From Luteimonas panaciterrae (GTDB lineage Bacteria; Pseudomonadota; Gammaproteobacteria; Xanthomonadales; Xanthomonadaceae), in contig NZ_JAJAVH010000004.1 in NCBI RefSeq assembly GCF_020511115.1, forward strand, positions 186,001-250,000: a stretch of 64,000 nt of DNA. The letters run 5' to 3'. Positions within the stretch are counted from its first letter, which is position 1. Every line of letters begins with the position of its first letter. Under the pieces are notes generated by a model. That model was not told the origin of the DNA and did not search any database. It saw nothing but the letters and a program-made list of their open reading frames with translations. The position numbers and the translations under genes were made by a program. Shown here piece by piece: positions 9,904 through 51,162 of this stretch.

Positions 9904-10476
9904 ATGGCAGTGAATTTCGAAAGTGAGGGACGACTGATCTGGATCGACCTGGAAATGACCGGGCTCGACACCGACCGCGATTCCATCCTCGAAATCGCCA
10001 CCATCGTCACGGACTCCGAGTTGAAGGTGCTCGCCGAAGGCCCGGAGTTCGCCATCGCCCATCCGCTGTCCGCGCTCGAGGCGATGGACGAGTGGAACCG
10101 TCACCAACATGGCAAATCGGGCCTGTGGCGGCGGGTTCTGGAGGAGGGCGTGCCCATGGCCGAGGCGGAGGCGCGCACGCTGACGTTCCTGCAGCAGTGG
10201 GTGGGGCACGGACACTCGCCGATGTGCGGCAATTCGATCTGCCAGGACCGCCGCTTCCTGCATCGGCAGATGCCATCGCTGGAGAAACACTTCCACTACC
10301 GCAACCTCGATGTCAGCACGATCAAGGAACTGGCACGCCGCTGGGCCCCGGAAGTGCTGGCCGGCTTGCACAAGGACTCAGCGCACACCGCGCTCAGCGA
10401 CGTCCGCGATTCGATCAAGGAACTGCGCCACTATCGCGCCTTCATGGGGCGTTTCGCCACGTCCTCGATGGCTTGA
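9904..10476 (+). CDS. orn: Oligoribonuclease
   Basis: This 190-residue DEDDh 3'-5' exonuclease degrades 2-5-nucleotide RNAs and pGpG, the last step of mRNA decay and of c-di-GMP turnover. The ExoI motif [22 protein letters not shown] is at residues 11-32. ExoII and ExoIII follow ([28 protein letters not shown], with the catalytic histidine and aspartate). Length and termini match the family. The 3' end overlaps the convergent mscS gene by 46 bases. Confidence 0.96.
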
Positions 10477-11372
10477 GTGGAGCCTCGTCCGGCCGCGCCG
10501 GGCAGCAGCACGCTGGGTGTCGACATCGGGCCGGCTTTCGCACCGCCGATGGCGTGGTGGTACATGTGCACGTCGCGCTGCGGGTAGGGGATGCGGATGC
10601 CGGCATCGTCGAAGGCTTTCTTGACCCGCTCGATCAGATCGCACTTGGTGTTGAAGAAATCCGCGTTCGATACGTGACAGCGGATGCCCAGGTTGACGCT
10701 GTTGTCGTCTAGCGCGTAGACGAGCACGTCGGCGGCGGGCTCGGCGAGAATGCGCGGTTCCGTCTGCATCACTTGCATGGCGGTATCGCGCGCCAGGTCG
10801 ATGTCGTCGTCGTATCCGATGCCGACCACCAGTTCGATGCGGCGTTTGACATCCGGCGTGAGATTGACGATCGAATCATTGGTGACCTGGCTGTTCGGCA
10901 GCACGATGGTCTGGTTGTCCGCGCCGCGCAGTCGCGTCTGGAAGATGCTGATGGCCTCTACCTGGCCGGAAGCACCGGCGATCTCGACGATGTCGCCGAC
11001 GCGGAACGGTTTCAGCGTCACCAGCATCACGCCGGAGGCGATATTCGAGAGCGAGTCCTTCAGTGCGAGCCCGATCGCAAGGCCGGCGGCGCCGAGCACC
11101 GCGATCATCGAGGTCATTGGAACGCCGACGATCTGCAGCACGGTCAACGTCAGCACGATCAGCAGCAGGATATACACGACCTTGCGCAGGAATTGCACCG
11201 CCGTGAATTCGATGCTCGTGCGCAGCAGCATCCTTTCCGTCAGCTTGGTCAGCCATTTGGCGATGCGGAAGCCGATCAGCAGAAGCAGCGCGGCTCCCGC
11301 GAGGCGGATGCCGATGGCAATGGCGATGCTGGACCAGTGATTGCCGCCTAGATTATCGAACCAGGTGTTCAT
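10431..11372 (-). CDS. mscS: MscS family small-conductance mechanosensitive channel
   Basis: The 313-residue inner-membrane channel has three N-terminal helices, including the pore-lining [24 protein letters not shown] helix. The MscS beta domain ([21 protein letters not shown]) and the cytoplasmic alpha/beta domain ending in [12 protein letters not shown] follow. It should release solutes on hypo-osmotic shock. The last ~30 residues after HHAIGG are an extra low-complexity tail whose codons overlap the end of orn. Confidence 0.92.
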
Positions 11373-11397
11373 GCTCCTGTCAGGTGTCGATGAAATG

Positions 11398-11423
11398 AAA
11401 CGCCCCGCATAGGCGGGGCGTTT
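11398..11423 (-). terminator. Intrinsic terminator downstream of ppsA
   Basis: A perfect hairpin (CGCCCCGC, loop ATA-type, GGCGGGGCG) is flanked by AAA on the left and TTT on the right, so it can act in both orientations. It lies between the 3' end of ppsA (11456) and the start of mscS (11372), both on the minus strand, and so separates them. Confidence 0.85.
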
Positions 11424-11455
11424 GCAAGACTAGACGATGTCACGTTATCGCAAGG

Positions 11456-13867
<2,412 letters not shown>

Positions 13868-13971
13868 AACCAGGCACTCCGGTGTTCATGCAGTGGGGGA
13901 AGCGGGCAAGACCCGCCGAAGTTGTTATTTTACCTGTCGCGTTGCCCCACGCATCCATGGAGCCTTAACAC

Positions 13972-15830: not shown

Positions 15831-15842
15831 CAGCAGTAAAGT

Positions 15843-15918
15843 TGGCGTCCCCACGGGGATTCGAACCCCGGTGTCCACCGTGAAAGGGTGGTGTCCTAGG
15901 CCTCTAGACGATGGGGAC
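15843..15918 (-). tRNA. tRNA-Glu(TTC)
   Basis: On the minus strand the gene starts GTCCCCAT and ends GGGGAC followed by G and an encoded CCA (15843-15845). The anticodon loop is CTTTCAC with anticodon TTC. The T-arm GGTTCGAATCC and the D-arm are canonical. Total length is 76 including CCA. It is downstream of tRNA-Ala in the same orientation. Confidence 0.97.
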
Positions 15919-15965
15919 GCAGTGAAACCTGAAACGCATTCCGATCGGGCCTAACGACTGGAATT

Positions 15966-16041
15966 TGGTGGAGCCAGGCGGGATCGAACCGCCGACCTCC
16001 TGCATGCCATGCAGGCGCTCTCCCAGCTGAGCTATGGCCCC
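15966..16041 (-). tRNA. tRNA-Ala(GGC)
   Basis: On the minus strand the gene starts GGGGCCATAGCTCAGCTGG and has anticodon stem CCTGC/GCAGG with loop ATGGCAT, so the anticodon is GGC. The T-arm is GGTTCGATCCC and it ends with an encoded CCA (15966-15968). It forms a pair with tRNA-Glu 47 bases away, probably one transcript ending at the terminator at 15791-15830. Confidence 0.97.
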
Positions 16042-16200
16042 ACGGCTGGAAAGCGCGAAATTCTAACGAGCGCTTGTGCGGTGCGCAAGGGTTTTGATGT
16101 CGGAATGATGACCGCGAGCTGCACGCCTGGAGATGGCTGGTCGAGAGCACCATCTGATCCCGATCCTCCAATTCCGACCAACACCCTGAAATCGTGGGAC

Positions 16201-22452: not shown

Positions 22453-22845
22453 GTCAATGGCTGACGGGCGGCCTGTTATCCGGTCGTCCGTTCTCCGGCA
22501 TTTTTCGATTCATGCAAGGGTTTGCCTTGTCCGCAAAGGAATGCGGTGCCGCCGCCGGTTGCGGCTCGACTCGAATACTGCGGATCGCATGTTCGCTGCC
22601 TCGCCCGAGGTGAGTGGATCGCGCCAGCACAGTCCGCCAGCATGGTTGTAGGCGGTCACGTCGTCGCTGTGACGTCGCATGTCGATCACACATAGTTGTA
22701 GCCGGAGAGACTCCATGTCGCGCGTACCTCGGCGACATGCACGCCATTCATGAGGGTAGGGTGGAATGCGCTTTCCGGAAACGGCAGCAGCGAGCGCGCT
22801 GAAGTGACCAGGGCGATGTCAAGGACAGCCTTTGTTGACTTGCCG
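22453..22845. other. Gene-poor stretch with possible gene remnant and one KOPS
   Basis: No convincing intact gene is seen in these 393 bases. On the minus strand short frames at 22510-22747 are broken by stops yet read protein-like pieces (for example HVAEVRATWSLSGYNYV), which could be a decayed gene. A GGGTAGGG octamer lies at 22754-22761. No terminator was recognised after the TonB receptor operon. Confidence 0.4.
22754..22761 (+). promoter_or_regulatory. KOPS octamer (last on the left of dif)
   Basis: GGGTAGGG matches the FtsK-orienting consensus GGGNAGGG and points rightwards to the dif-like site at 24157. It is the nearest left-hand member of the set listed in the findings. Confidence 0.5.
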
Positions 22846-23085
22846 TCAGCCGTTCTCGATATATCCCAAAGCGTCTAAAAGCACGGACAGGCCTGATAAA
22901 AAAAATAACAACCCGAACAAGAAGAAGAGACAGCCAATAACAATTGCTCTCCAGCCGATTGCTGTCAGCACTGGAGGATCAAGTTCACCTACGTATTTTC
23001 TGCGGATGATGATTCGTACCGCCCAGACCATAACAATCAGCCCAATACCGGAAGTGCATACAATTAATGTGATAAGTTCGAGCAT
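22846..23085 (-). CDS. Small two-helix membrane protein, hypothetical
   Basis: The 79-residue frame has two strongly hydrophobic helices (residues 4-24 and about 47-71) separated by a short basic loop RIIIRRKYVGELD. Base composition is clearly AT-richer than the flanking genome, and a poly-A/T tract follows its 3' end region (about 22898-22920). It belongs to the accessory patch around dif. No homologue recognised; function unknown. Confidence 0.5.
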   Translation of the reverse strand: MLELITLIVCTSGIGLIVMVWAVRIIIRRKYVGELDPPVLTAIGWRAIVIGCLFFLFGLLFFLSGLSVLLDALGYIENG

Positions 23086-23131
23086 ATCTAGAACTCTGGA
23101 AGATTGATGTCGGATTTATACAAGTCAGCTT

Positions 23132-23962
23132 CTAGGATCTCGAAAATTGATCTTTCCACGAGCCATCGTCCCACTGATCTACGATTTTTATATCGGGAAG
23201 GCCTTTCCATTCCCAAGATTCTTTAGGAAACTTCAAATTATATAAGTTTTTCCCCTCATTCATTAGAATTTGTCTTGCGGCCGCAATGTATTCGGAAAGA
23301 TTAGGGGTGTCGTGAATAGCTACGTTGATGGCGGCGGCTGTGGTTTGAATAGAATCTGACAGCCACAGCATGACTAATTTTTCTTTGTATGAGAAGGGAG
23401 GGTAGTGTCCTTTTCTTGTTATCTGGATCATTTGTCCGTGCGTAAAGGCGTGCAGGTAACCTGGAAAACTGTCATGTAGTAGTTTTGCCTCAGGGAAAAC
23501 TTCGACGATGGCCTCAAGAAGGCCGCCTATCAGTGGAAGCCGATCTTTTCTGCTTGGTTGTTTGCGCGGGTTGATGAGGTGCTTTATTTTGCTGGGTGGC
23601 GCGCAATACGCGAGCCAATATGCAGTTGCAGAGGCTTCAAGTAATGGACGAAGCAATGCAGCTGCGGAGCCAGTATTGTTCGCTTCTATCAATCGAGCGA
23701 TGGCTAGATGATGTTCGCTCGCAAGGCTGGCTGCGCATTGGGCCAGATACAATCGTGCCAACTTGGGCAATTCGGTTGTCGTACGGCTATGTAGAATCCA
23801 ACCGTGTTGCCGTGAGAGCAGGCAGCGTTGACTGAGGACTTCCAGTTCCGGTGTCGTGTACAACCTGTCCCCCTGACTGGCCCGCACAGAGCGACAGCAT
23901 AGACCAGCCCGTCCTCGGTCTGCGTTGCTCACTGCAGTGGCGCGGCTGGCGACACTGCCCAC
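23132..23962 (-). CDS. Hypothetical protein, DUF6988/DUF5677-like
   Basis: The frame encodes up to 276 residues, but the first ~60 (GC-rich, low-complexity) may not be translated. The convincing part starts near KLARLYLAQCAASLASEHHLAIARLIEANNTGSAAALLRPLLEASATAYWLAYC. It later has YLHAFTHGQMIQITRKG. These blocks, a helix with a conserved arginine/glutamate followed by an H-x-x-T-H motif, resemble the DUF6988/DUF5677 group of unknown function. The coding part is AT-richer than the genome and standing alone, which suggests recent acquisition. Confidence 0.6.
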   Translation of the reverse strand: MGSVASRATAVSNADRGRAGLCCRSVRASQGDRLYTTPELEVLSQRCLLSRQHGWILHSRTTTELPKLARLYLAQCAASLASEHHLAIARLIEANNTGSAAALLRPLLEASATAYWLAYCAPPSKIKHLINPRKQPSRKDRLPLIGGLLEAIVEVFPEAKLLHDSFPGYLHAFTHGQMIQITRKGHYPPFSYKEKLVMLWLSDSIQTTAAAINVAIHDTPNLSEYIAAARQILMNEGKNLYNLKFPKESWEWKGLPDIKIVDQWDDGSWKDQFSRS

Positions 23963-24156
23963 AGACCGGCGACCTCATCGACCCGACCAGCTACACGAGC
24001 ACCGAAACCACGCCGTCGATGCCAAGAAACATTTCAGAGCAGCTTTGAATTGCCGCGCTATGGATCAGGCCATTGCGATCGCATCGCGGTGGGGAACGCC
24101 CAGGCTTTTAGCCGGTTGGTTAAAGCTGCGAAGAGACGGAGGCCACATCTGATCTT
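23963..24156. other. Intergenic segment left of the dif-like site
   Basis: No supported gene. A short + frame from 23851 to 24048 has protein-like wording (LQWRGWRHCPQTGDLIDPT) and could be a relic of a small phage-type gene, but it has no start signal or family match I can defend. Confidence 0.35.
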
Positions 24157-24184
24157 ATTTCGCATAATGTACATTATGTTCAAT
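24157..24184 (+). other. dif: dif-like XerCD recombination site
   Basis: A 28-base site is composed of a left arm ATTTCGCATAA (24157-24167, XerC side), centre TGTACA (24168-24173) and right arm TTATGTTCAAT (24174-24184, XerD side). The gammaproteobacterial dif consensus has arms of the form NNTNCGCATAA and TTATGTTAAAT around TGTATA. The site therefore differs only at one central base and at one base of the XerD arm. FtsK-orienting octamers converge on it from both sides. It is either the chromosomal dif or a dif/att junction left by a dif-integrating element. Confidence 0.85.
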
Positions 24185-24297
24185 GCGATGCACCGCTTGG
24201 CTCGCCGCCTGCGCCACCAGTTGCTGGCGTGGCTGGTGCGCTTGCAGCTTTCAGACGATGGCGCTTACATGATCCCCCAACCTACAGGGGGTTAATC

Positions 24298-24417
24298 ATG
24301 GACGACAGCGAGGCCAACCCCTCGGCGTGGTACGGATGGCGGCTGCAAGGCCGCCATCTCGTTTCCCCGGACGGCCAACGCATCCGCCCAGAGTTCGGCC
24401 ATGCATCAAAGTCATGA
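24298..24417 (+). CDS. Short DUF3653-like phage-type protein, possibly truncated
   Basis: ATG 24298 follows an AGGGGG ribosome site. It encodes 39 residues: MDDSEANPSAWYGWRLQGRH then LVSPDGQRIRPEFGHASKS. The W-x-GWR and SPDG pair resembles the small DUF3653 proteins that I associate with phages of Xanthomonadales. Known members are about twice as long. Just before the TGA the +1 frame stays open to a TGA at about 24463, so a frameshifted remnant is possible. It begins 114 bases from the dif-like site. Confidence 0.45.
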   Translation: MDDSEANPSAWYGWRLQGRHLVSPDGQRIRPEFGHASKS

Positions 24418-24528
24418 TCGTCCACCTCGCCGATTACCGTCACAACGACGTCGCGGTGAGCTGACCACCTATCCCCTGAGGAAATCTAAGGGCATCACGC
24501 TTATGATCTAAGACACAAGGGGGAAATT
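24418..24528. other. Intergenic, nothing recognised
   Basis: A short stretch between the DUF3653-like frame and the next gene. AAGGGGGAAATT at about 24518-24529 serves as ribosome site for the gene starting at 24529. Confidence 0.4.
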
Positions 24529-25116
24529 ATGGATAGCGGAGTAGCTGGCCTCTTAGGCGCACTGATTGGCGGCATCATTTCATGGTTCGCTACATGGAGC
24601 ATAGAAGTACGTCGAGATCGTAGACAGGCAAGAAACCTTGCTCTAGCAGCTGCTAGTGAAATAGACGCTGCGCTGGAAATGGTCAGTGCACGTAACTGGA
24701 GGCAAGAATTTGTGACGGCCCTTGCCTTGGCGGAAAAAGGGATCGTCGACCTCGGGACGATCCATGTTCGAGATGATTATCTTCCAATGTGCCGCGCGGC
24801 AATGGCTCATGCAGGCGTAATTAGCCGCGAACTCTCAGTGGATTTAGCAAGGTTCATTACACTTGCAGATGCGCTTACATCTGATCTTAAACGCATGGCT
24901 GAACATTCGCCAGGAACGTATGGAGCATTATTTGCTGAAGACGATGCCGAAGGCGCTGCAAGGGTCTATGAAAGCTTAATAAAAATTATAGATTCTGCAT
25001 TTGTTGTTGGTACTAGAATGGTAACGCTAGTAGACAAAATGTATCCGAAAGAGATAAGCGGTTACGTGGCTCGCTTTAAGGGTGCTTGGAATATCATTGC
25101 TGCCGGATCGCTATAA
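24529..25116 (+). CDS. Hypothetical membrane-anchored protein
   Basis: The 195-residue product is preceded by AAGGGGGAAAT. It has one N-terminal membrane segment (VAGLLGALIGGIISWFATWSI, residues 4-24) followed by a basic stop-transfer EVRRDRRQARN. The cytosolic part is helical and soluble, with no recognised motif. N-terminal anchors of this form are common in orphan phage or island proteins. Composition is AT-richer than the genome. Function unknown. Confidence 0.6.
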   Translation: MDSGVAGLLGALIGGIISWFATWSIEVRRDRRQARNLALAAASEIDAALEMVSARNWRQEFVTALALAEKGIVDLGTIHVRDDYLPMCRAAMAHAGVISRELSVDLARFITLADALTSDLKRMAEHSPGTYGALFAEDDAEGAARVYESLIKIIDSAFVVGTRMVTLVDKMYPKEISGYVARFKGAWNIIAAGSL

Positions 25117-25142
25117 CGCATGCCTACTGCATATCAGAACAA

Positions 25143-25715
25143 CTAACCTACTCTCGCTTCTCTGACCGGTTTGACCTTTGACGAAAGCAATGACGCAATA
25201 CGATCGTTGAAAAGACAAAACACATCCAAAGTGTGCTCGCCGTGTCCACCGCCGCTGATCATATCTTCTGGCTTCTTAGGCACTGGATAACGCCCCAACC
25301 AAACTATGTATTTGGATAGGAACTCGCAAAGATCGGCTTCACTCTTACTCAATGAAACACCTGCGATTGCAGCAAGATCATTGAGGTTATGAGTTTGATA
25401 CTTGGTATCGCTAGGATCTCGCGTGGCCTCGGAAAAATAGATGGCCTTCAATCCCACTTCGATAGTGTAACCGGCTAAAAGAAACGTAGAGCCCCAGCCG
25501 CTTACAAGAAAGCTGTCTAAGAAGTTCGCATTCGTCAGTTTGGCTGAATCAAAACTTTGAATCTCCACGTACATGCGATCAACAAGAATTCGAGAGCCCA
25601 TAGAAAGCTGTTTATAAGTCGCGTGCCAACGATGCGGACTAACACTGTCTTCTGCGTGCGTATCAATACCGCCCGACGTAAAAAAGCCAACCATAGATTT
25701 CTTGCAATCATTCAT
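25143..25715 (-). CDS. Hypothetical protein with HEPN-like helix motif
   Basis: I chose ATG 25715, which has AGGAAGGGA upstream; the frame is open to 25808. The 190-residue product contains LLAGYTIEVGLKAIYFS (about residues 79-95) followed by THNLNDLAAIAG (108-119). That arrangement is seen in HEPN-domain proteins, where a G-x-S/T-I-E-x-x-L-K-A helix precedes a histidine-containing second helix. HEPN proteins are often RNases or partners in toxin and defence systems, but the canonical R-x4-6-H catalytic motif is not obvious here. The gene is convergent with and 26 bases from the anchored protein gene. AT-rich; function unknown. Confidence 0.55.
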   Translation of the reverse strand: MNDCKKSMVGFFTSGGIDTHAEDSVSPHRWHATYKQLSMGSRILVDRMYVEIQSFDSAKLTNANFLDSFLVSGWGSTFLLAGYTIEVGLKAIYFSEATRDPSDTKYQTHNLNDLAAIAGVSLSKSEADLCEFLSKYIVWLGRYPVPKKPEDMISGGGHGEHTLDVFCLFNDRIASLLSSKVKPVREARVG

Positions 25716-25859
25716 GATCGCGTCCCTTCCTGAATCATGAATATATCTCAGAAACTGATCGGCTCGTAAGGCGGGTCTTGCCCGATGGAGCGGCGTGCAT
25801 ATGACCATGAATTGCCGCAGCGTGCTTGATCGCTGGCCTGATTGGGTTGGCTGGCCCGG

Positions 25860-26270
25860 TTAAAAGCCTCTACAGGCCGCAAACACGGCATCGTTGAGGC
25901 GTCGCCGTAGATCGATGCTTGAGGTGTTTTCCATGCGCGCCCGATCGCGCTTTGCCTGTTCGCATTCGGCGGATACGCGTGGCGTTCGGTGTTGCGGTGG
26001 ACTGTGGTAGACCCGGTCCGTTCCGGCAGCCTTGGCAAGCCGTCGATTCTCGGCCATGCGCCGCTTGGCGTCGTCGCGGGCGCGCTTGTGGTCCTCGCTG
26101 GAGCGCTCCTCATCAGTCGTCACGTTCTTGACCGATGCTGTCCGGGTGCCCGAGGGGCACGGCATGTTCTGCAGTGTCACCTGCCCGCCTCTGTCTACGC
26201 AGCGGTAAACATCCGCTGCCGGCACTGACCCGGCAGTCAGACACAACAAAAAGCCCACGATCCATTTCAT
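25860..26270 (-). CDS. Secreted DUF4124 domain protein
   Basis: The 136-residue product has a signal peptide (MKWIVGFLLCLTAGSVPAA) directly followed by the DUF4124 core DVYRCVDRGGQVTLQNMPCPSGT with its two cysteines. A charged coiled region rich in Arg/Glu and a C-terminal cysteine pair (ECEQ, AACRGF) follow. Such periplasmic proteins are numerous in Xanthomonadales; function unknown. Its GC-rich codon use marks the right edge of the accessory patch. Confidence 0.8.
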   Translation of the reverse strand: MKWIVGFLLCLTAGSVPAADVYRCVDRGGQVTLQNMPCPSGTRTASVKNVTTDEERSSEDHKRARDDAKRRMAENRRLAKAAGTDRVYHSPPQHRTPRVSAECEQAKRDRARMENTSSIDLRRRLNDAVFAACRGF

Positions 26271-26312
26271 GGCATACCCCCTGTATGTCGGAGAATAGCC
26301 AAAGCATCGTCA

Positions 26313-27533
26313 GTGAGATTTCACGGTCAGATTGACGACGTCCAATCACGGAGCGCGTTGCCGGTGGCGGAAATTTTCTGGGTATTCCTGAAGCTGGGCC
26401 TGACTTCGTTCGGCGGTCCCATCGCGCATCTCGGCTATTTCCGGGAGGAATTCGTGCGTCGGCGGCAGTGGCTGGACGATGCGGGTTTCGCGCAGTTGCT
26501 GGCCGTCTGTCAGTTCCTGCCGGGGCCGGCCAGCAGCCAGTTGGGGTTCGCCATCGGGCTGTTTCGAGGCGGATGGCCGGGAGCGTTGATGGCGTTCGTC
26601 GGGTTCACCCTGCCCTCGGCGTTGCTGATGTTCGGTATTGCGCTGCTGGCGCCGCATGTCGATGGCGGCATCGGCAGCGCGGTCGTGCACGGGTTGAAAC
26701 TGGTGGCGGTTGCCGTGGTCGCGCAAGGCATTCTCGGCATGGCGCGACAGCTGACGCCGGATGTGCCTCGTGTCCTGATCGCCGCGGTCGCGGCTGCGTT
26801 GATCTTGTTGACGGGCAATGTCTGGATGCAACTGGTCGCCATCGCGCTGGGCGGTGCGGCGGGACTGTGGATGTGCAGGCGTGTGACGCCGCCGCCAGCG
26901 GCGACTTTCCCGGTGCGCTATGGCACTGGCGTCGCGATGTCGTTCTTCGTGCTGTTTCTGGTCGGTCTTCTTGCGAGTCTGGCCTTGCCCACGGAGCAAA
27001 CGGTTTCCACGGGTGGATTGGCCGCGGCGTTTTATCGAACCGGTGCTTTGGTGTTCGGTGGCGGCCACGTCGTGTTGCCGCTCCTGCAGCACACGGTGGT
27101 CGAACCTGGCTGGGTGACGTCGGATGCGTTCCTGGCCGGCTACGGTGCGGCGCAGGCGATGCCGGGGCCGATGTTTTCGCTGGCGGCGTTCCTGGGAGCG
27201 AGTGCATCGTTGGATACATCGCCAGGACTTGGTGCGAGCATCGCCTTGATCGCGGTCTTCCTGCCGGGTTTCCTGTTGTTGCTGGCGGTGCTGCCCGTAT
27301 GGACGCGTCTGGCGGCGCGGGCGTGGGCGATTCGCGTCATGGCGGGAATCAACGCGGCCGTCGTCGGTCTTCTGGTGGCCGCGTTCTACGATCCTGTCTG
27401 GACTGAGGGGATTCGCGGTTTCGCCGATGTTGTGATCGCCGCTGTCGCCTTCGTGATGCTGATGGCGTTTCGTCTCTCGGCGCTGTGGACAGTGCTCTGG
27501 TGCGTCGTTGCTTCGGCCGCGCTGACTTTGTAG
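26313..27533 (+). CDS. chrA: Chromate efflux transporter ChrA (CHR family)
   Basis: The 406-residue inner-membrane protein is built of two homologous halves. Each half starts with the family motif: FLKLGLTSFGGPIAHLGYF with QFLPGPASSQLG in the first, and GALVFGGGHVVLPLL with QAMPGPMFSLAAF in the second. CHR proteins extrude chromate or related oxyanions. The start is GTG 26313; no regulator (chrB) is adjacent, so the physiological substrate is uncertain. The first KOPS to the right of dif (26608) lies inside it. Confidence 0.9.
   Translation: MRFHGQIDDVQSRSALPVAEIFWVFLKLGLTSFGGPIAHLGYFREEFVRRRQWLDDAGFAQLLAVCQFLPGPASSQLGFAIGLFRGGWPGALMAFVGFTLPSALLMFGIALLAPHVDGGIGSAVVHGLKLVAVAVVAQGILGMARQLTPDVPRVLIAAVAAALILLTGNVWMQLVAIALGGAAGLWMCRRVTPPPAATFPVRYGTGVAMSFFVLFLVGLLASLALPTEQTVSTGGLAAAFYRTGALVFGGGHVVLPLLQHTVVEPGWVTSDAFLAGYGAAQAMPGPMFSLAAFLGASASLDTSPGLGASIALIAVFLPGFLLLLAVLPVWTRLAARAWAIRVMAGINAAVVGLLVAAFYDPVWTEGIRGFADVVIAAVAFVMLMAFRLSALWTVLWCVVASAALTL
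26608..26615 (-). promoter_or_regulatory. KOPS octamer on the minus strand (first on the right of dif)
   Basis: CCCTGCCC on the + strand is GGGCAGGG on the minus strand, so it points leftwards to the dif-like site. It marks the change of KOPS polarity described in the findings. Confidence 0.5.
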
Positions 27534-27551
27534 CGGATCGGCGAGGCGGAA

Positions 27552-39927: not shown

Positions 39928-40259
39928 TGTTCGACCTCAAAAATCGAATAAAAACACATGACTAGCCCTCATTCTTGAAGTTGTTTGAAGGGCGTGCGCC
40001 TACCGCCCTCGTGCAAGGTCCGGTAGGCATCATCAGCTGGATGTCGGCGCCAGCGGTTCAGGGAGGATGCCATCTCCCGTGATCGGATTTGAGCCGTCAG
40101 ATTATGCCGCGATCGGTCTTCGTGCGCGTCGGGCTCGATCGCCGGCATGTGGTGACTCGTCATTCCGGTCGCCGATGCGACATCATTGCGGGTATCCCTC
40201 CGGCAAGCCCGCGACCCTGTGCGCGGGCTTCCGACAACGGAAGACCTTCCCCCGCTTCC
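39928..40259. other. Intergenic between crcB and the winged-helix regulator
   Basis: No supported gene in 332 bases. A perfect 9-base hairpin (AAGCCCGCG / CGCGGGCTT, 40205-40231) sits 30 bases before ATG 40260 without a T-tract, so it may influence translation or mRNA stability of the regulator. A 34-codon Arg-rich minus-strand frame (39969-40073) is noted as rejected. Confidence 0.4.
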
Positions 40260-48771: not shown

Positions 48772-51162
48772 CTACTTCGGCGGCGGTGGTGCCAGTACCG
48801 TGCGGTCGCCGTTGTGCTCGGGCGGAGAGACTACACCGGCCGCTTCCATGGCTTCGACCAGACGCGCGGCACGGTTGTAACCGATCTTCAGACGTCGCTG
48901 CACGCCGGAGATCGAGGCGCGCCGCGTTTCGGTGACGATCTTCACCGCTTCGTCGTACAACGGATCGCTCTCGTCCCCTGCTCCGCCGCCGGCTTCCGGC
49001 AGGCCGGTGGCGCCGACCACGGTGCCGTCGCCCATGGTCTGCACTTCGTCGAGCACGCCTTCGATGTAGTCGGGGCCGCTGCTGCTCTGTCTCAGATGAT
49101 CGACGACGCGATGCACTTCCTCGTCGCTGACGAAGGCGCCGTGCACGCGCTCGGGCAGCGCGGTGCCCGGCGGCAGATAGAGCATGTCGCCGTGGCCGAG
49201 CAGTGTCTCGGCGCCGGATTGGTCGAGGATCGTGCGCGAGTCGATCTTGCTCGACACCTGGAAGGCGACGCGCGTGGGAATGTTCGCCTTGATCAGGCCG
49301 GTGATCACGTCCACCGACGGGCGCTGCGTGGCCAGGACGAGATGGATGCCGGCCGCACGTGCCTTCTGTGCGAGGCGTGCGATCAGCTCTTCCACCTTCT
49401 TGCCGACGATCATCATCATGTCGGCGAATTCGTCGATGATGACGACGATGAACGGCAGTGTTTCCAGCGGACGCGGCGCCTCGCCCAGTTCCGGGTTCGG
49501 TTTGAACAGCGGGTCCATCATCGGCTGGCCGCTGTCCTGCGCGTCCTTCACCTTCTTGTTGAAGCCGGCCAGGTTGCGCACGCCGACCGTCGACATGAGT
49601 TTGTAGCGGCGCTCCATCTCCGCCACGCACCAGCGCAGGCCGTTGGCGGCCTCCTTCATGTCGGTGACCACCGGCGCCAGCAGATGCGGGATGCCCTGGT
49701 AGACGCTGAGTTCCAGCATCTTCGGGTCGATCATCAGCATGCGCACGTCCTGCGGACCGGCCTTGTACAGCAGGCTCAGCACCATGGCGTTCACGGCCAC
49801 GGACTTGCCGGAGCCGGTGGTGCCGGCCACCAGCAAGTGCGGCATGCGCGCGAGATCGGCCACGGTCGGGCGGCCGGCGATGTCCTTGCCGAGCGCGAGA
49901 GTGAGCGGGCTGCCGGACTTGTCGTATTCCTTCGAGCGCAGCAACTCGCTGAGATAGATCATCTCGCGATGCGAGTTCGGTGTTTCCAGGCCGATCACCG
50001 ATTTGCCGGGAATCACGTCGACCACGCGCACCGATTTCACCGACAGGCCGCGCGCGATGTCCTTGTCGAGCGAGCTGATCTGGCTGACCTTCACGCCCGG
50101 CGCCGGCTCGATCTCGAAGCGCGTGATCACCGGGCCCGGATAGGCGCCGACCACCTGCGCGTCGATGCGGAAATCCTTGAGCTTGAATTCGATCTGCCGC
50201 GACAGCGTTTCCAGCGTGTCCTCGTCGTAGCCCTTGGGCTGCGGCTTGGGATCGTCGAGCAGCGCCAGCGGCGGGATGCCGGAGCCGTCACCGACGTTGA
50301 ACAGCGGGATCTGCTGCTCGCGCTTGGCGCGGTCGCTCTTCTCCACCTGCGCCGGCGCCGGCGGTTCGATCTTGACCGGGGCGCGCTTGGCGCGCAGTTC
50401 GGTCTCGATCTTGCGGGTTTCCTCGCGTTCCTCGCGATGGGCGCGCGCTTCCTGCCATTCCGCCGCCTGCTGAGTGCTGCGGCGGAACAGCGCCGGCAGC
50501 TTGAGCACGAACTGGCCGATGCGGTCCATCACCGCGAACCAGGACAGGCCGGTGGCCAGCGTCACCGACACCAGCAGCAGTGCCAGTAGAAAGAGATTGC
50601 CGCCGATCGGGCCGAAGCCGCGATACAGCGAATTGCCGACCAATCGGCCAAGGATGCCGCCGGCACCCGCCGAGAAATGCTCGACGTTGCCAAAGCGCAG
50701 ATACAGCAGGCCGGTGGCGGACACCAGAAAGCCGACGATGCCCATCAAACGCAGCGCCGGGCCGAGATCGGGATTGCCGTCCCCGTCCTTATCCATGCCG
50801 AACAGGGCGATCCAGGCGATCGCGCCGAGCATGATCGGCAGCAGGAAGGCGACGTAGCCGGTCAGGTACAGCAGCACGTCGGCCAGCCAGGCGCCGACGC
50901 GGCCGCCGAGGTTGTGCAACGGCGTGGTGACACTGCCGGTGCTGGAGGACCAGCCCGGATCGTTCGGCGAATACGTGAACAGGCTGGCCAGCAGGTATAG
51001 CAGCAGCGGCGCGATCAGGATCAGCGCGATGTCGCGCCACAGACGCTGGCGTTGCGGATTGCCACCATCAGGCATGCCGCGACCATTGGATGCGGCCGCG
51101 GCGCCCTGAGACGCGGAAGCGCGTGGACGTTTGCTGCGTTCCGGGAGCGGACGGGATGCCAC
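48772..51162 (-). CDS. ftsK: DNA translocase FtsK
   Basis: The 796-residue product has four N-terminal membrane helices and a short linker (the E/R/K-rich stretch near residues 235-290). The RecA-like motor has Walker [20 protein letters not shown] and Walker [17 protein letters not shown]. The C-terminal gamma winged helix ([38 protein letters not shown]) reads KOPS and activates XerD. FtsK pumps sister chromosomes to dif at division. Its gene is only ~25 kb from the dif-like site and its own expected octamers are arranged accordingly. Confidence 0.97.

Follow-up and report, generated by a model that had tools for sequence, protein, structure and literature searches.

A 28-bp sequence in the Luteimonas panaciterrae genome resembles a dif site, and the question is whether it is the chromosomal dif of this bacterium, marking the terminus of replication, or a recombined att/dif junction, as the preliminary description of this DNA had considered possible. 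The dif site is the place where joined circular copies of the chromosome are separated before division. We analyzed the site within a stretch of 64,000 nucleotides (here referred to as the window), which corresponds to positions 186001 to 250000 of a contig of 608,048 bases (C45). On the evidence presented below, the 28-mer almost certainly serves this Luteimonas as its functional chromosomal dif (probability of about 0.97). It is a genuine and unremarkable site, an ordinary single-copy member of a well-known kind, and its interest lies only in its setting. The replication terminus and the dimer-resolution site of this genome are thus fixed, and the seeming anomalies of the site are normal for the genus.

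Sequence and uniqueness of the site

The 28-mer, ATTTCGCATAATGTACATTATGTTCAAT, is located at positions 24157 to 24184 on the forward strand (C45:210157), as earlier described, and consists of an 11-bp XerC arm (ATTTCGCATAA), a 6-bp centre (TGTACA), and an 11-bp XerD arm (TTATGTTCAAT). Of its 28 positions, all but 2 agree with the Xanthomonas-type dif, ATTTCGCATAATGTATATTATGTTAAAT, which bears out its initial designation as a dif-type site with an 11 + 6 + 11 organization. Under a weight matrix built from the sites of 54 relatives, it scored 52.9 bits, inside the training range of 43.8 to 59.4, and hence fits the pattern of the clade.

The site had been described as the only one of its kind in the 64 kb, and this holds: it is the sole match in the window when up to three mismatches are allowed, and 100 dinucleotide shuffles of the window contained no match at the same threshold. 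The genome-wide search that had been proposed gave the same result, with a single site at up to three mismatches in the whole 4.09-Mb assembly (109 contigs, 99.99% complete). No degenerate copy was detected on the 608-kb contig, where the next-best nonoverlapping sequence scored −0.6 with the weight matrix. The relatives likewise have one dif site per genome. In the named collection, the exact 28-mer is present in one genome only, that of Luteimonas aquatica RIB1-20 (NZ_JALBFU010000001.1). The resemblance of the 28-mer to dif is far beyond chance.

The dif of Xanthomonas campestris ATCC 33913 has been given by Carnoy and Roten in 2009 (PMC2731167), and the terminus of X. campestris strain 17 is the subject of a study by Yen et al. 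from 2002, as cited in PMC3025954. The X. campestris dif and the site in the window have in common the length of 28 bp, the 11 + 6 + 11 organization, the TTCGCATAAT core, the presence of a single copy, and a position opposite the origin. Unlike the X. campestris dif, the site in the window has the centre TGTACA instead of TGTATA and carries TTCAAT at the XerD end.

Two of these departures, the TGTACA centre and the C within the XerD arm, had been taken as features of the kind seen in att sites of dif-integrating phages, a view that the comparison with dif sites of relatives does not sustain. Among 54 sites of the family, collected with patterns that admitted both centres, TGTATA accounts for 25 and TGTACA for 18; in the genus itself, represented by 21 sites after the window and its nearest relative were left out, the order is reversed, with 12 sites having TGTACA and 5 having TGTATA. 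At position 25, where the window has C, the same base is found in 5 of the 54 family sites, and positions 24 to 28 are all variable. TGTACA is therefore the most frequent centre within the genus, ordinary dif sites vary freely in the outer XerD arm, and both departures are ordinary; we rejected the TGTACA centre as a phage signature on these grounds. The inner six bases of each arm were demanded by the collecting pattern, and hence their invariance among the collected sites is not evidence.

Position of the terminus and components of dimer resolution

KOPS and GC skew were computed for the whole 608-kb contig rather than for the genome. KOPS, which orient FtsK, provided the strongest of the tests. 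Those of the form GGGNAGGG are strongly polarized around the site, with 44 forward and 2 reverse copies to the left of dif and 1 forward and 64 reverse copies to the right. For GGGCAGGG alone, the corresponding counts are 26 to 0 and 0 to 53, so that with dif as the divider this octamer is polarized 79:0, the most of all octamers on the contig. The best switch point, obeyed by 108 of 111 KOPS, lies at C45:208754-212608 (positions 22754 to 26608 of the window), an interval of 3.9 kb that holds dif. Its left edge is the nearest KOPS on that side (GGGNAGGG; positions 22754 to 22761, forward strand; C45:208754), which points right to dif, and its right edge is the nearest KOPS on the other side (CCCTNCCC as read on the forward strand; positions 26608 to 26615, reverse strand; C45:212608), which points left to dif. 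The main general value of the analysis is in this approach: KOPS and dif were both identified from octamer polarity, scored for all octamers on a single contig, with no need of a closed genome.

GC skew on the contig is positive to the left of dif, approximately zero from 210 to 310 kb, and negative beyond. The GC skew check that had been suggested was thus positive with respect to a turnover in the dif region, but the maximum of the cumulative skew itself, at 249488, is 39 kb from dif; given the broad plateau on which it lies, we see no serious objection in this offset. As the assembly is in 109 contigs, the distance between oriC and dif was taken from relatives. In five complete genomes (G190, G183, G157, G105, and G013), the homologous site is located at 0.47 to 0.52 of the chromosome from dnaA (fractions calculated by hand). 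Uniqueness, the KOPS switch, the skew turnover, and the position opposite dnaA in relatives all support the earlier proposal that the window contains the chromosome terminus.

The genome encodes XerD (368 bits), XerC (374 bits), and an FtsK gamma domain (100 bits), all scoring above their cut-offs. The ftsK gene (796 amino acids [aa]; positions 48772 to 51162, reverse strand) is in the window, and its gamma domain (positions 48790 to 48972) is 24.6 kb from dif. From what is established for such systems, recombination would fuse sister chromosomes into a dimer, and FtsK at the septum, the motor that activates XerCD, would be guided to dif by the KOPS on both arms and would then activate XerD there. 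XerC and XerD, presumably bound at dif, would recombine the two dif copies and restore monomers.

Across bacteria, ftsK is usually located between xerC and xerD, and xerC is near dif, according to Kono et al. (PMC3025954). In 27 other genomes of the family with both features on one contig, ftsK is 3.8 to 144 kb from dif, and in all 28 scorable genomes, this one included, it faces dif, from either side; G123, G168, and G001, with ftsK and dif on separate contigs, were left out of the scoring. Given the common ancestry of these genomes, and given that inversions symmetric around the terminus leave such distances unchanged, the closeness of ftsK and dif may reflect inheritance and not selection.

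Turnover of the DNA around dif

The site is embedded in strain-specific, low-GC DNA (22.45 to 26.3 kb), with a G+C fraction of 0.51 to 0.53 across 22 to 26 kb versus 0.65 around it. The closest relative (G070), which appears to be L. aquatica RIB1-20, shares the outer neighborhood at 73 to 86% identity, and yet different DNA, about 12.4 kb long, takes the place of the stretch from 22453 to 27550 there. Thus, the two dif sites agree in their identical 28 bases, in being single copies, and in the conserved blocks that lie farther away to the left and right, whereas the immediate surroundings are unrelated and about 7 kb longer in L. aquatica. As only the 28-mer and a few bases are common to both genomes inside the replaced stretch, dif is the constant element in a region of changing DNA. 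More distant Luteimonas have still less dif-flanking DNA in common with the window. Carnoy and Roten reported that sequences outside the 28-mer vary greatly among proteobacteria (PMC2731167); the comparison given here documents the speed with which such DNA is replaced in Luteimonas.

The strain-specific stretch at positions 22453 to 27550 may carry defense cargo at dif, as a DUF6988 accessory gene (positions 23132 to 23962, reverse strand) resembles the candidate defense family PDC-S52, and a second gene is weakly similar to PDC-S67; other genes in the stretch are unassigned. At 116 bp from dif lies a truncated stub of a DUF3653 phage protein (39 aa; positions 24300 to 24416, forward strand) that covers profile positions 7 to 29 of 66. 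The stub is a probable inovirus remnant and may be a relic of an insertion at dif. The flanks had no matches to phage and plasmid DNA, and the stub had none to phages by tblastn. Further, the 23-base dif core TTTCGCATAATGTACATTATGTT was not found in viral contigs; at least 120 stretches of viral contigs do match a shorter dif core containing TGTAYA, but such a core is common to the dif and att sites of many hosts. No complete element was found at dif in the window, and no functional one is left there.

In another Luteimonas genome (G173), filamentous prophage genes (DUF3653, Zot, DUF2523, and TspB-like; L089, positions 10026 to 13906) adjoin dif, and a second dif-like site was not found in the 20 kb examined. 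The DUF3653 gene of this prophage, which is fuller than the stub in the window, weakly matches Stenotrophomonas phage PSH1 (E value, 0.01). Past insertions at dif are plausible in view of the strain-specific low-GC DNA, the nearby stub, and this prophage. We also considered, as a doubtful proposal, that the dif neighborhood of the Lysobacteraceae is a hotspot of turnover in which nothing but the 28 bp is lasting, Xer-dependent phages and defense-type cargo being transient, and that the placement of ftsK, kept about 4 to 144 kb away and always facing dif, could reflect selection on location.

History of the site and its surroundings

Xanthomonas inoviruses insert at dif through the host XerCD (PMC4076744, PMC5666396). 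The attP sites of XacF1 and Cf1c use the same host sites, and the XacF1 attP has a 15-bp dif core in common with them (PMC4076744, PMC5666396). The site in the window differs from these cases in having no partner att site and in having complete, conserved inner XerC and XerD arms. Kono et al. found dif inside phage open reading frames in Vibrio and Xanthomonas and still judged these to be functional dif sites (PMC3025954).

Could the 28-mer be a hybrid of attL and attR, formed when a XerCD-dependent phage or island integrated, so that the true dif would be located elsewhere or have been partly replaced? The DUF3653 stub, the low-GC strain-specific DNA on both sides, and the Zot-bearing prophage directly at dif in G173 would fit such a junction. 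However, the genome contains no second site that could flank an element together with this one, so that there is no att pair, and in place of phage or island genes between paired sites there is only the truncated stub beside a single site. Further, both departures from the consensus are also seen in family members with ordinary dif sites, KOPS converge exactly at the site, and the same 28-mer stands within unrelated flanks in L. aquatica. The hybrid is therefore largely refuted, above all by uniqueness, and we regard it as very improbable; what survives of the junction first suggested is that the phage remnants nearby point to past insertions. A chance palindromic, AT-rich sequence is refuted outright, given the shuffles without a match and the conservation of the 28-mer among relatives whose surrounding DNA is entirely different.

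A history of insertion is compatible with a functional dif, as it concerns the past of the site and not its present role. Under this reading, earlier insertions have decayed into what are now the flanks, and the 28-mer may include bases donated by an element. The replacement of the flanks on both sides even relative to the closest relative, the stub, and the inovirus adjoining dif in G173 argue for it, but no complete element, pair of attachment sites, or match to phage or plasmid DNA accompanies them, and the origin of single dif bases is not traceable; we consider the chances evenly balanced. The inverted orientation of the site was rejected as evidence of recombination, because complete relatives differ in how dif is oriented with respect to dnaA.

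Two observations concern the wider surroundings. Comparison with five other Luteimonas genomes shows a tRNA-Glu/tRNA-Ala pair (positions 15836 to 16065) to be inverted with respect to its conserved neighbors. In addition, the orientation of dif relative to the same conserved block is opposite in this genome and in G070. Together, they point to rearrangement close to the terminus. The window also contains a fluoride riboswitch (positions 40017 to 40086, reverse strand; Rfam RF01734, 52.7 bits).
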